Position numbers and translations under genes: made by a program. Source: Magnetospirillum sp. ME-1 (GTDB lineage: Bacteria > Pseudomonadota > Alphaproteobacteria > Rhodospirillales > Magnetospirillaceae). From it: a stretch of DNA of 64,000 nt. Each line of letters begins with the position of its first letter. Within the stretch, counting starts at the first letter, position 1. Positions 12,032 to 60,567 of the stretch are shown here, in pieces. The notes beneath the pieces are model-generated. The model searched no databases and was not told where the DNA came from. It saw nothing but the letters and a program-made list of their open reading frames with translations. The stretch lies in NCBI RefSeq assembly GCF_002105535.1, contig NZ_CP015848.1, forward strand, positions 3,638,926 through 3,702,925. Reading direction: 5' to 3'.

Positions 12032-12125
12032 TGTCATCCTGACGACCGCAGGGAGGAAGGATCTTTCAGCGGCAAGCTTCTGCCGCCATCGGGTGAAAGA
12101 TCCCTCGGCTGCGCTCGGGATGACA
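12032..12125. repeat. Family-1 palindromic repeat, copy 2
   Basis: A 94-bp hairpin just after proS. Ends are TGTCATCCTGA and TCGGGATGACA, with inner arms GGATCTTTCA and TGAAAGATCC. An outer inverted pair (GAACCGA at 12023, TCGGTTC at 12133) lengthens the stem beyond the usual element. Confidence 0.92.
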
Positions 12126-25440: not shown

Positions 25441-26226
25441 TCAGGAAACTCCGCGTTCGCGCTTGTTGACCCGGGCCATGGACAGGCCCAGGCACAGTCC
25501 CGCCCAGGCCAGGGTCACCGCCAGGGACACCAGATAGGAGCTGTCGGTGAACAGTCGTTCCGGCCCGCCGTAGAAGGGGGCGCGGATGATCACCAAAGCG
25601 TGGCTGACCGGATTGGCCAGCATCACCATTTTCATCCAGCCCGGCACGTTGCCGATGGGGAACAGGGCGCCCGACAGCATCCACAGGGGCATCAGGAACA
25701 CCATCATCACCGCGTGGAAGGCCGAGGTGGACTTCATGCCCCAGGCCAGCAGGAAGCCCAGCGCGGAAAAGCCGATGCCGGTGAGCAGGAAGCCCATCAG
25801 CAGCAGGACCAGCGCGCCCGCCCCCAGATGCAGCCCCAGGAAGGGCGCGGCGATGGTGAAGATCAAAGTCTGGATCATGGCGATGGAGGTGGCCCCCAGC
25901 ACCTTGCCCAGCACGATGGCCAGCCGCGACACGGGCGCCACCAGCACGCCCTGGAGGAAACCGGCGTCGCGGTCCTCGATGATGGTGATGGACGAGAAGA
26001 TGGATGCGAACAGCATCATCATCAGCATCACGCCGGGGTAGAAATATTCGAGATAGGTGACGTTCTCCATGCCCGCCGGGCGGAACGAGCCGCCGAAGCC
26101 GGCCCCCAGGAACAGCCAGAACAGCAGCGGCTGGGCCACGGTGCCGACCACGCGCTGAGGCTGGCGGATGAAGCGGGTGAACTCGCGCCTGGCCAGCGAG
26201 AAGGCGACGGGGGCCATGCCGGTCAT
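25441..26226 (-). CDS. ABC-2 type exporter permease
   Basis: A 261-residue membrane protein of the ABC-2 family with six predicted helices. The segments EYFYPGVMLMMMLFASIFSS and GFLQGVLVAPVSR are typical of the NodJ/DrrB-like branch. It works with the ATPase encoded upstream on the same strand. The two genes are now separated by a 105-bp palindromic repeat flanked by direct repeats; without it they would overlap by ATGA. The start is ATG 26226, with GGGAG 7 bases upstream. Confidence 0.9.
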   Translation of the reverse strand: MTGMAPVAFSLARREFTRFIRQPQRVVGTVAQPLLFWLFLGAGFGGSFRPAGMENVTYLEYFYPGVMLMMMLFASIFSSITIIEDRDAGFLQGVLVAPVSRLAIVLGKVLGATSIAMIQTLIFTIAAPFLGLHLGAGALVLLLMGFLLTGIGFSALGFLLAWGMKSTSAFHAVMMVFLMPLWMLSGALFPIGNVPGWMKMVMLANPVSHALVIIRAPFYGGPERLFTDSSYLVSLAVTLAWAGLCLGLSMARVNKRERGVS

Positions 26227-26231
26227 GATGC
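26223..26231. repeat. Left 9-bp direct repeat flanking repeat copy 3
   Basis: TCATGATGC on the plus strand, spanning the permease start codon. It is identical to 26351-26359 on the other side of the palindromic element, consistent with a target-site duplication. Confidence 0.7.
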
Positions 26232-26239
26232 GGCTCCCT

Positions 26240-26344
26240 TGTCATCCTGACGACCATCGGGAGGAAGGATCTCATTCTGGAACGGCCATGCCGCGCCGGC
26301 ACCAATGGTCCAGGCGGAGATCCCTCTCTTCGCTCGGGATGACA
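26240..26344. repeat. Family-1 palindromic repeat, copy 3, inside an operon
   Basis: A 105-bp hairpin with ends TGTCATCCTGA and TCGGGATGACA and inner GGATCTC/GAGATCC arms. It sits between the two ABC exporter genes. Direct repeats TCATGATGC lie 8 bp outside its left end and 6 bp outside its right end. Confidence 0.93.
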
Positions 26345-26350
26345 GGGACA

Positions 26351-26359
26351 TCATGATGC
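26351..26359. repeat. Right 9-bp direct repeat flanking repeat copy 3
   Basis: TCATGATGC on the plus strand, including the stop codon of the ATPase gene. It is the same 9 bases as at 26223-26231. Confidence 0.7.
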
Positions 26360-27325
26360 CGCCTTCCTGAGTTCGAGCGCCAAAGCGTGGTCGGGAACCG
26401 CCTTGCTGGTGACGTGGACGAAGACGTCGTCCAGGCCGGGCTGCTTGATGGCGATGGAGGCGATGTCGGCGCGGTATTTGTCCAGGATGCGTTCGAGCAG
26501 CGGCAGGCTCTCGCCGTTCTCGGTCTCCTCCAGGCGGACCTCGTCGCCGATGCAGCGCACCGCCAGGCCCATGTCGACCCGCAGGCGTTCGGCCAGGACT
26601 TCCGCGTTCTTCGCCTGGACCACCACCATCTCGGTGCCGATCATGGCTTTCAAGGCGGCCGGCGTGTCGTGGGCCAGCAGCTTGCCTTCGCGCATGATGG
26701 CGACGCGGTCCACGTCGTCGGCCTCGGAAAACACGTGGCTGGTCATCAGCACGGTCATGCCGCGCTCCTTCTGCAGGCGGTGCAGCGCGCCCAGGAAGTT
26801 GCGCCGGCTCATGGGGTCCAGTCCGGTGGTGGGCTCGTCGAGCAGCAGCACCTTGGGGTCGGTCATCAGTACCTTGGCCAGCTCCACCTGCCGCGCCAGT
26901 CCGCCCGACAGGGTGTCGACCTTCTGGTCCAGGCGGCCATCGAGATCGGTCCAGTCCAGGGCGCGGTCGCGGCGCCGCGTGAAGTCCGCGCCGGCGAGGC
27001 CATAGAGGTCGGCGTGAATCTTCAGGTTCTCGCCCACCGACAGGTGCTTGTCCACCGCCGGGCTCTGGAACACCACCCCCATGATCTCGCGCACCCGGGC
27101 GGGATGGGCGAACAGGTCGAAGCCGCCCACCGTGACCTTGCCGGAACCCGGCAGGGTCATGCCGCACAGGATGCGGAACAAGGTGGACTTGCCGCTGCCG
27201 TTGGGGCCGGACAGGATGGCGAACTCACCCTCCCGCACATCCAGGGTGAGGTCCGCGATGGCCTTCCGGGGCGGCATCTTGCGCGTGCCCGGATAGGTGT
27301 GGCTGAGATTGTCGATGGTGATCAT
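26351..27325 (-). CDS. ABC exporter ATPase
   Basis: A 324-residue ATPase of the drug/polysaccharide exporter type. Walker A is SGPNGSGKSTL, the signature LSGGLARQVELAKVL, Walker B LLLDEPTTGLDP, and the H-loop MTSHVFSEADDVD. A ~100-residue C-terminal extension follows, as in DrrA/NodI-like proteins. ATG 27325 gives the family-like start MITIDNLSHTYPG; an in-frame ATG at 27343 is possible. The last codons contain AGGAAGG seven bases before an ATG-like position, the probable ancestral ribosome site of the permease gene. Confidence 0.92.
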   Translation of the reverse strand: MITIDNLSHTYPGTRKMPPRKAIADLTLDVREGEFAILSGPNGSGKSTLFRILCGMTLPGSGKVTVGGFDLFAHPARVREIMGVVFQSPAVDKHLSVGENLKIHADLYGLAGADFTRRRDRALDWTDLDGRLDQKVDTLSGGLARQVELAKVLMTDPKVLLLDEPTTGLDPMSRRNFLGALHRLQKERGMTVLMTSHVFSEADDVDRVAIMREGKLLAHDTPAALKAMIGTEMVVVQAKNAEVLAERLRVDMGLAVRCIGDEVRLEETENGESLPLLERILDKYRADIASIAIKQPGLDDVFVHVTSKAVPDHALALELRKAAS

Positions 27326-27383
27326 GGCCGGGCACTGTTCCATAGCCCGGCGGGTGGGTAAAGGCCCGCCTTATTAAAAAACA

Positions 27384-56159: not shown

Positions 56160-56265
56160 TGTCATCCCGAGCGCAGTCGAGGGATCTCCGTCTGTCGTTT
56201 TGGTGCCGGCTCTGAAAAGCCTGACCAGGATGAGATCCCTCCTCCCGATGGTCGTCGGGATGACA
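56160..56265. repeat. Family-1 palindromic repeat, copy 4 (inverted)
   Basis: A 106-bp hairpin with ends TGTCATCCCGA and TCGGGATGACA. The GAGCG-type arm is on the left and the GACGACC-type arm on the right, opposite to copies 1-3. It fills the gap between nadE and gltX. Confidence 0.93.
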
Positions 56266-59062: not shown

Positions 59063-60490
59063 ATGAGCAGAGTGCCGCTCACCGGCTGGAAGTTGGGGTA
59101 TCACGCCCTGACCTTCGTACTGGTGGTGGGCCTGCTGATGGCGCCGGCGCTGTGGAACGGCTATCCGCTGATCTATTTCGACAGCGAGGATTACGTCGAG
59201 ATGGCGTTCTCGCTGCAGCCGATCATCTGGCGGATCATGACCTACGGCGTGTTCTGCACCATCGCCAAGGCGTTCGGCACGCTGTGGGCTGTGCCGCTCG
59301 CCCACGCCATCCTCACCACCTGGGTGCTGCACGAAGCGGTGATGGGCTTCATCGGCCGCTGGCGCCACATGGTGTTCTTAGGGGTCGGGCTGGCGCTCGC
59401 GCTGTTCACCGGCCTGCCCTGGGTGTCGTCCCAGGTGCTGGCCGACGTCTTCGCCGGGGTGGCCATCCTGGGCGTCGCCACGCTGGCCTTCGGCGAGGGG
59501 CTGCAGACCTGGCGGCGCTTCTGCCTGATGGTGATCACCGCCATTTCCATCTGCGTCCACATGAGCCACGTGGCGGTGGCCGCCGGGCTACTGCTGGTGC
59601 TGGTCGTGGTCTGGCTGGGTTCGCGCTTCATGCTGCGCATGCCGCGCCCGCGCATGTTCTGCCCCGTGGCGGCCATCGTCGGCGGCATCCTGCTGGTGCC
59701 GCTGACCCACCAGCTTCTCATGGGCCGGTTCGTCTTCTCGGAATCGGGCCAGGTGCTGCAGCTGGCCCTGTTCATCCAGAACGGCATGGCCAAGAGGTAT
59801 CTGGACGAGGTCTGCCCCCAGGGGGCCGATCTGGAGATGTGCGAGCACAAGGACGAGCTGCCGCGTACCGCCGACGAGTTCCTGTGGGGGCCGTCGCCGT
59901 TCAACGAGATGGGCGGCTGGACCGCCATGCACGACGAGGCCAGCCAGATCGTCTCGGGCGCCATCCGGACCTTTCCCGCCGAGGTTCTCCAGGCGGCATG
60001 GGCCAATACCTGGGAACAGCTGAACTCCATCGAAAGCGGCGAGGATCTGGTGCCCATGACGTGGCACTTCGTGCGGACCCAGTTGCGGCGCTATCCCGAC
60101 GAGTTCAAGCAGTTCCGCTTCGCCCGGCAGCAGCGGCGTCCCCCCATCGACTTCTTCGCCATGAATTCCTTCCAGATTCCCATCAACTGGGGGGCGGAGC
60201 TGCTCACTCCGATCCTGCTGGCGGTGGCCTGGAAGCGGCGCGACCGCACCACCACCGGGCTGGCGATCATCGTGGTGGCGGCCATCATCGGCAACGCCAT
60301 CGTCTGCGGCGCGCTGTCCAATCCCCATGACCGCTACCAGAACCGGGTGGTGTGGCTGGCCCTGTTCACGGCCATCATCGGCGCGGTCCGCCTGGACCAG
60401 CGCTTCGCCGGCCAGCGCCGGATCGCCATCCGCATGGAGAACGAGGCGCTGGCGGTCGAGGCGGCCCGGGGCAAGAATGTGTCATCCTGA
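59063..60490 (+). CDS. Polytopic membrane protein, GT-C glycosyltransferase-like
   Basis: A 475-residue protein with about ten membrane helices. After helix 1 comes WNGYPLIYFDSEDYVEMAF, an acidic first-loop motif like that of GT-C glycosyltransferases that use lipid-linked sugars. A large loop (about 235-345) carries CPQGADLEMCEHKDELP. It could move a sugar across or at the membrane; this is inference. It starts 4 bp after cysS. Its last codons and stop (VSS, TGA) are the first bases of a family-1 repeat, so the natural C-terminus may have been altered. Confidence 0.75.
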   Translation: MSRVPLTGWKLGYHALTFVLVVGLLMAPALWNGYPLIYFDSEDYVEMAFSLQPIIWRIMTYGVFCTIAKAFGTLWAVPLAHAILTTWVLHEAVMGFIGRWRHMVFLGVGLALALFTGLPWVSSQVLADVFAGVAILGVATLAFGEGLQTWRRFCLMVITAISICVHMSHVAVAAGLLLVLVVVWLGSRFMLRMPRPRMFCPVAAIVGGILLVPLTHQLLMGRFVFSESGQVLQLALFIQNGMAKRYLDEVCPQGADLEMCEHKDELPRTADEFLWGPSPFNEMGGWTAMHDEASQIVSGAIRTFPAEVLQAAWANTWEQLNSIESGEDLVPMTWHFVRTQLRRYPDEFKQFRFARQQRRPPIDFFAMNSFQIPINWGAELLTPILLAVAWKRRDRTTTGLAIIVVAAIIGNAIVCGALSNPHDRYQNRVVWLALFTAIIGAVRLDQRFAGQRRIAIRMENEALAVEAARGKNVSS

Positions 60491-60567
60491 GCGGAGCGAA
60501 GGATCTTTCAGCCCGAAACGTCTGTCCTCTGGCCTGAAAGACCCTTCGGCTTCACCTCAGGGTGACA
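60480..60567. repeat. Family-1 palindromic repeat, copy 5
   Basis: An 88-bp hairpin with ends TGTCATCCTGA and TCAGGGTGACA. Both arms are of the GAGCG/GAAGGATCTTTCAG type, unlike copies 1-4. It supplies the stop codon of the gene on its left and ends one base before the stop of the convergent gene on its right, so it could end transcription from both sides. Confidence 0.9.

Follow-up and report, generated by a model that had tools for sequence, protein, structure and literature searches.

The window, a 64-kb stretch of DNA, belongs to a genome of 4.55 Mb in a single contig (G000). On its minus strand lie two genes of an ABC exporter, first the ATPase (ORF at 26351–27343; Pfam ABC_tran, 1.4e-30; TGA stop at 26351–26353) and then an ABC-2 type permease (ORF at 25441–26226; Pfam ABC2_membrane, 1.8e-29; ATG start at 26226). 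On that strand the ATPase ends ...GCA TCA TGA and the permease starts ATG ACC, with a gap of 124 nt between the genes. Within the gap stands a TGTC-tagged inverted REP dimer of 105 nt with the ends TGTCATCC...GGATGACA (26240–26344; locus L001). This is copy 3 in the window; further copies lie at 2864–2969 and 56160–56265 and, as a shorter subtype with the inner part GGATCTTTCA, at 12032–12125 (94 nt) and 60480–60567 (88 nt).

The dimer is bordered by filler on both sides, which in turn is bordered by a direct repeat, TCATGATGC (coding strand, GCATCATGA). One copy of the direct repeat lies at the permease start (26223–26231) and the other at the ATPase end (26351–26359), where it includes the ATPase stop codon. 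The filler on the permease side, GGCTCCCT (8 nt, 26232–26239), carries on its coding strand a Shine-Dalgarno (SD)-like AGGGAG (26234–26239), 7 nt before the permease ATG. The filler on the ATPase side reads GGGACA in the letters of the window (6 nt, 26345–26350). The original prediction, that the same 9 bp stand on both sides of the repeat, was verified letter by letter. It had further proposed that taking out one direct repeat and the element would restore a 4-bp ATGA overlap behind AGGAAGG, and this holds to the base: removal of the 128-nt insert in silico fuses the ATPase and permease genes into an ATGA overlap, with AGGAAGG, the ribosome-binding-like site of the empty state (plus-strand positions 26362–26368, read on the minus strand), upstream and within the coding end of the ATPase.

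Four of the nine repeated bases, the ATGA, are forced whenever an ATGA overlap is split with both genes preserved. The five informative extra bases would match by chance about once in 1000 by simple arithmetic, and against the cross-paired flanks of the 105 repeat copies described below the 9-bp repeat has P = 0.0024. It is the empty site, and not the 9-bp repeat alone, that makes the case for an insertion at this junction.

The junction without the repeat

We compared the junction across 17 genomes of the genus, G000 and 16 relatives, and matched the permease in all 17. An ATGA overlap joins the two genes in 11 of the 16 relatives, and a single GCATCATGA stands at the junction in the five nearest (G010, G007, G013, G006, and G001). 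The predicted empty site was thereby found, and the overlap kept in relatives that lack the insert upholds the proposal that this copy now parts two formerly overlapping genes. Three relatives (G002, G003, and G009) have a spacer of 11–12 nt behind a TAA stop, and two (G004 and G015) have 97 and 136 nt, respectively, of different sequence.

In a gene tree built from the ATPase and permease, G000 pairs with the empty G010 (support 100/100), so the insertion is derived and took place on the G000 lineage. The element entered an ATGA overlap, which left 9 bp of the junction doubled. One could suppose instead that the junction carried the element ancestrally and that the relatives lost it. Nine sites filled in both G000 and G006 are without the element in G010, so losses or allele exchange do occur; the TGTC-tagged family is found at the ABC junction in none of the 16 relatives, however, and 11 of them have the clean ATGA overlap, which makes an ancestral element hardly credible.

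The insert in G015 matches at least 42 places in G015 and at least 41 in G004, the G004 junction included, so it is another dispersed repeat, unlike the G000 family. The G004 and G015 inserts are both flanked by ATGAGCG. Both are separate from the G000 insert. G015 pairs with the empty G012 in the two-gene tree (support 96/96), and on that tree the G004 and G015 inserts also appear separate from each other, the forks between them being moderately supported (83/87 to 86/97). The same ABC junction is thus split in three lineages by two different repeat families.

The repeat family

G000 contains 63 copies with exact ends (0 with a reversed-pattern control), and at least 72 copies were listed in this genome in all, one of the two scans behind this list having scored 40 of its 156 candidates. 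Exact-ended copies are present in 9 of the 17 genus genomes (G006, 40; G008, 16; G013, 16; G007, 13; G001, 10; G004, 4; G011, 2; and G010, 1, besides G000) and absent from 8. Among 150 genomes drawn from the larger order, 13 gave a match. Nine of the matching genomes belong to other genera, and among those nine G154 alone showed internal likeness by eye. The dispersed copies, together with the empty sites in relatives, bear out the earlier suggestion that the elements have moved.

For detailed analysis, we used 105 copies, 64 from G000 and 41 from G006, picked by an end pattern that tolerates one mismatch; those with two or more mismatches at either end (for example, L021 and L027) are excluded. 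The arms are tagged TGTC in 203 of 210 cases and CGTC in 5, an end pattern that favors TGTC having been used for the selection. Of the 210 arms, 203 were readable and 7 were not; among the readable ones 198 have a contiguous outer stem of 5 bp, the stem-loop is 21–30 nt long, and the tails read CTC (176), CCC (14), or CTT (11 of 203). Two arm types are combined in 65 of the 105 copies, paired copies alone having been collected. With the G006 copy L171 as query, homology among copies covers both arms and the spacer, typically positions 32–137 of that query. According to a rough gene picker, co-directional genes flank 70 of the 105 copies, convergent genes 23, and divergent genes 12; direct reading of junctions contradicted the picker at L016, L059, L061, L171, L173, and one L160 copy, giving at least six erroneous orientations, all of which lower the co-directional count.

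At L160 (G006:C1:858051-863485), four repeat copies (at 1001, 1942, 3280, and 4331) occupy gene junctions of an aromatic-catabolism cluster encoding an HpaI aldolase, a CHMI isomerase, a LigB dioxygenase, an aldehyde dehydrogenase, and one product without a Pfam match. The aligned junctions of this cluster in G007 have no such dimer, and two of them carry other palindromes.

Other insertion sites

Direct repeats were defined as the longest stretch shared between the 50-base flanks of a copy. Both flanks could be aligned to a relative for 29 of a first 43 G000 copies and 13 of another 20, and for 23 of the 41 from G006. In the search for these sites in relatives, the best 40 candidates per genome were scored and joined flanks favor empty sites, so filled sites are under-seen; in one such search 16 of the 41 G006 copies were queried. 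The reading frame was taken directly from the junction letters for the downstream gene of L001, L059, L061, L171, and in part L016, and for the upstream gene of L170 and L173.

Four further split gene overlaps gave direct repeats that can be set against an empty site: 22 bp at L171 (empty in G010 and G013), 17 bp at L016 (empty in G010), 11 bp at L174 (empty in G001), and 6 bp at L170 (empty in G007). L016 is also filled in G006 (L184, element 92% identical), where ATGA alone is visible on both sides. By eye, ATGA alone is doubled at L008 and L061, and about 4 bp at L158, which lies at a GTGA overlap. The shared stretch of 16 bp at L026 is seemingly a doubled gene end. At two GTGA overlaps, L158 and L004/L173, the downstream start reads by eye GTG when the site is empty and ATG when it is filled.

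Coding sequence was lost at two sites. At L007 (1501–1606), the upstream gene has lost its old C terminus and now ends in the element-coded ACHPERERGISA; the downstream gene there retains an ATG behind a GAGAGAG stretch. At L059 (1501–1605), as read by eye, the N terminus of the downstream gene is replaced, a signal-peptide-like start having been removed, and the element end GGATGACA may supply a new ATG. Where aligned sites lie outside overlaps, most show a plain exchange of the spacer in which a duplication is unreadable.

The original prediction of a clean insertion with target duplication did not carry over as a fixed length to other sites, where the doubled stretch ranges from about 4 to 22 bp and coding sequence is lost at L007 and L059. 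By its own terms it would be refuted if other recent insertions lacked a duplication of 9 bp. Taken literally, that is the case: no further verified site shows this length, although several show duplications of other lengths. The amount of target doubled varies by site, with loss of coding sequence at two sites. The spread of about 4–22 bp, together with the losses, is not explained by a fixed stagger. Some of the short direct repeats could be remnants of longer ones, left by old insertions that are eroding. At gene overlaps, both genes would stay readable only after events that duplicate the common ATGA or more, or that bring in a new start or stop, so selection would pick out duplications at these places.

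We considered whether the direct repeats might be no more than the forced ATGA plus chance, the element having been inserted without any duplication. This would account for L008 and L061, where nothing clear is seen beyond ATGA, and for four of the nine bases at the ABC junction. Across the 105 copies, direct repeats with a score of at least 9 were observed five times against 0.66 expected from cross-pairing, and those with a score of at least 11 four times against 0.03 expected. The repeats of 22, 17, and 11 bp therefore exceed both chance and the forced bases, and the five extra bases at the ABC junction argue in the same direction, making this explanation very improbable. A within-copy inverted control was also in excess (3 of 105 at a score of at least 11), indicating that the flanks are not random, which counts against a simple reading of these counts.

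In the five clearest overlap cases, 3–24 nt stand between the direct repeat and the element. When L171 with its flanks was compared with the rest of G006, 33 of the 39 other matches began within one base of TGTC, and 33 of 39 ended within two bases of GACA; homology extended past the element leftward in 6 of 39 and rightward in some, by up to about 19 nt. Because homology mostly stops near TGTC...GACA, most of the 24 and 3 nt that border L171 are filler and not family sequence. Past the first two or so positions, the bases adjoining the element also differ among copies. We considered donor flank carried along with the element as the source of the L171 bases and found it unsupported, since homology mostly ends near the element borders, in 33 of 39 matches on either side. 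The bases between the doubled sequence and the element are absent from the old site in the relatives compared.

Candidate movers

No parental insertion sequence with the same ends was seen in G000, and a composite transposon was rejected for this genome, as the closest pair among the at least 72 listed copies is 3 kb apart. Five ORFs near copies were scanned; two encode components of an RND efflux pump, and the other three gave no Pfam match. The nearest copy to L001 among those compared is 88% identical, and comparison of the adjoining bases by eye gave nothing firm as to its donor.

Bacterial MITEs make target duplications, and the exact 9-bp repeat with its exact empty site at the ABC junction is what would be left by a MITE moved by a DDE transposase with a fixed 9-bp stagger. 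The other direct repeats, however, measure 22, 17, 11, 6, and about 4 bp. Adjacent to the element, the sequence is variable past about two positions and at L171 is mostly not of the family, and no composite element occurs among the listed G000 copies, none of which lies closer than 3 kb to another. We regard movement by a DDE transposase as quite improbable.

The original prediction had suggested a search for a transposase, for example of the REP-associated Y1 type. A search for the Y1 domain (PF01797, E ≤ 0.001), positive in 5 of 14 control genomes, gave no match in G000 or G006, the most copy-rich genomes of the genus. It matched four of the 17 genus genomes, G013, G001, G004, and G014, which have 16, 10, 4, and 0 copies of the repeat, respectively. 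Two inverted palindromes of about 105 nt in high copy are what one would see of a REPIN mobilized in trans by such a tyrosine transposase; nevertheless, the lack of a PF01797 match in G000 and G006, the copy numbers where it is matched, and the statement that known IS200/IS605 members make no larger target duplications (in the passages of PMC2817692 that treat them) render this explanation improbable.

Capture by Ku-dependent nonhomologous end joining was likewise rejected. Ku (PF02735) was found in none of the 17 genus genomes searched; among 14 control genomes the same search was positive in one, Bacillus subtilis.

Turnover among relatives

The junction in G010 could be aligned for 36 of the 64 G000 copies, and the element or an exact end was found in none of the 36 by a search that favored empty sites. 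Nine of these 36 sites are filled in G006, which lies farther than G010 from G000 in the ABC gene tree. The nine shared pairs are 89–98% identical, except for L048/L177 (80%). This points to loss of the family from G010 or, alternatively, to an exchange of alleles. Exact-ended copies number 63 in G000 but 1 in G010, its sister at the ABC locus. Putative remnants of deleted copies were seen in G013 (the L010 and L142 sites), G001 (the L142 site), and G007 (the L144 site).

G010 has a spacer of at least 40 nt at 11 of the 36 sites, and in 10 of these 11 spacers an inverted repeat of 9 bp or longer is present. At L082, L087, L089, L193, and L201, G010 has other palindromes, such as CGTCATGGCCGGGCTTGACCCGGCCATCCA, where G000 has the TGTC-tagged dimer; CGTCATGGCCGGGCTTGACCCGGCCATCCA agrees much better with CGTC REPs as described in the literature.

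That the same spacer often carries different palindromes in different genomes could point to two separate steps, a local duplication that opens the overlap and a REP dimer that later enters or replaces the spacer without duplication. The filler standing between the repeat and the element would be expected from such a history. On the other side, a duplication without a repeat was seen at the ABC junction in 0 of 16 relatives, and no intermediate was seen in the one or two relatives compared at each of L171, L174, and L170. We consider a two-step origin unlikely.

Translation across the junction

SD-like sites were scored against a threshold of −7.0, reached by the best 10% of 300 random stretches, whose median was −3.3. 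Six of nine filled junctions reached this score (L001, L009, L016, L061, L171, and L148), and L008 (−6.5), L007 (−4.8), and L158 (−3.1) did not. Four of nine empty counterparts also reached it (L001, L016, L171, and L158), with −9.5 at the empty L171 site. A gain of an SD-like site on insertion is clear at L061 and L008 only, whose empty sites score −3.2 and 0, respectively.

The RNA of the ABC junction insert has a predicted fold of −56.6 kcal/mol (z −2.75), equaled by 2 of 200 shuffles, and the predicted hairpin pairs the SD-like site in one filler with the TCCC of the other. After the insertion, the permease would no longer restart from the ATPase stop and would start from the new SD-like AGGGAG. 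With that site paired in the predicted hairpin, the ratio of ATPase to permease has probably changed, and we infer that translation of the permease is altered.

Discussion

We propose, with a probability of about 0.6, that a TGTC-tagged, REPIN-like REP dimer was inserted at the exporter junction by an imprecise process, either integration or a repair-type capture at a staggered break, with addition of filler. The variable duplications, the filler, and the empty sites are read directly from the genomes compared, and from them we infer the capture step. The dimer would have been captured together with filler, imprecisely, at a staggered break, rather than moved by a cut-and-paste reaction with a fixed stagger.

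More tentatively, and with the odds against it, imprecise capture of this kind, free of a transposase and independent of Ku, may spread REP dimers throughout the genus, placing a palindrome with filler into staggered breaks and doubling a variable length of target each time. Gene overlaps would record these events, since those that duplicate sequence or supply a frame would alone persist there; junctions would be split again by different palindrome families, and operon coupling would be undone and rebuilt by REP traffic.

The footprint of variable duplication plus filler constrains the mechanism of insertion. It also points to a route by which overlapping, presumably coupled operon genes can part and gain a ribosome-binding-like site of their own, a route of gene separation that is shown by the one ABC exporter junction split in three lineages.

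We found no report of a TGTC-tagged dimer family or of its insertion in the open-license literature searched, in which the 2013 survey was the only work on CGTC repeats found from 2013 on. The bacterial MITEs Correia and RUP (PMC2817692, in the passages on these families) share with the present element the character of a short, nonautonomous, inverted-repeat element that inserts. A DDE-type MITE has a duplication of fixed length next to its terminal repeats, whereas here the duplication has no fixed length (about 4 to 22 bp) and filler of 3–24 nt stands between it and the element at both ends.

REPINs, as described in the relevant parts of Bertels and Rainey (2011; PMC3116915), also consist of an inverted REP pair that forms the dispersing unit, reach high copy number, and can decay to single REPs. 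Here too, the two inverted REPs form one dispersing unit. REPINs are mobilized by a RAYT (Y1) encoded in their own genome, whereas no Y1 domain was found in G000 or G006 and the insertions here have target repeats of variable length. For REPIN movement, the same paper presents three single reads in which one REPIN group was excised, along with 18 putative insertions, among which false positives are possible.

The element is also close in form to the CGTC REPs surveyed by Di Nocera et al. (2013; PMC3733652), according to the portions of that survey that describe them. Those repeats share the unpaired CGTC/TGTC tag and a stem starting with AT. They pair mostly in opposite orientation and often as heterodimers, in which the present family may resemble them, 65 of the 105 paired copies collected here combining two arm types. 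They are frequent in alphaproteobacteria, and no dedicated transposase is known for them. Their families 1–4 bear the tag CGTC, often TGTC or CCTC, in agreement with the tag found here. Their stem, however, has 8–9 bp and their loop 4–5 nt, compared with an outer stem of 5 bp in a stem-loop of 21–30 nt here, and their tail is mostly CCA, compared with CTC here. The present family resembles CGTC REP dimers but departs from two of their described features. The survey left open whether CGTC-type REPs are still being formed and what moves them, and the terms “duplicat,” “target site,” and “empty” are absent from its main text. Unlike that main text, the present comparison provides empty-site evidence for insertion, with matched empty sites in relatives, one of them exact to the base, for CGTC-like REP insertions.
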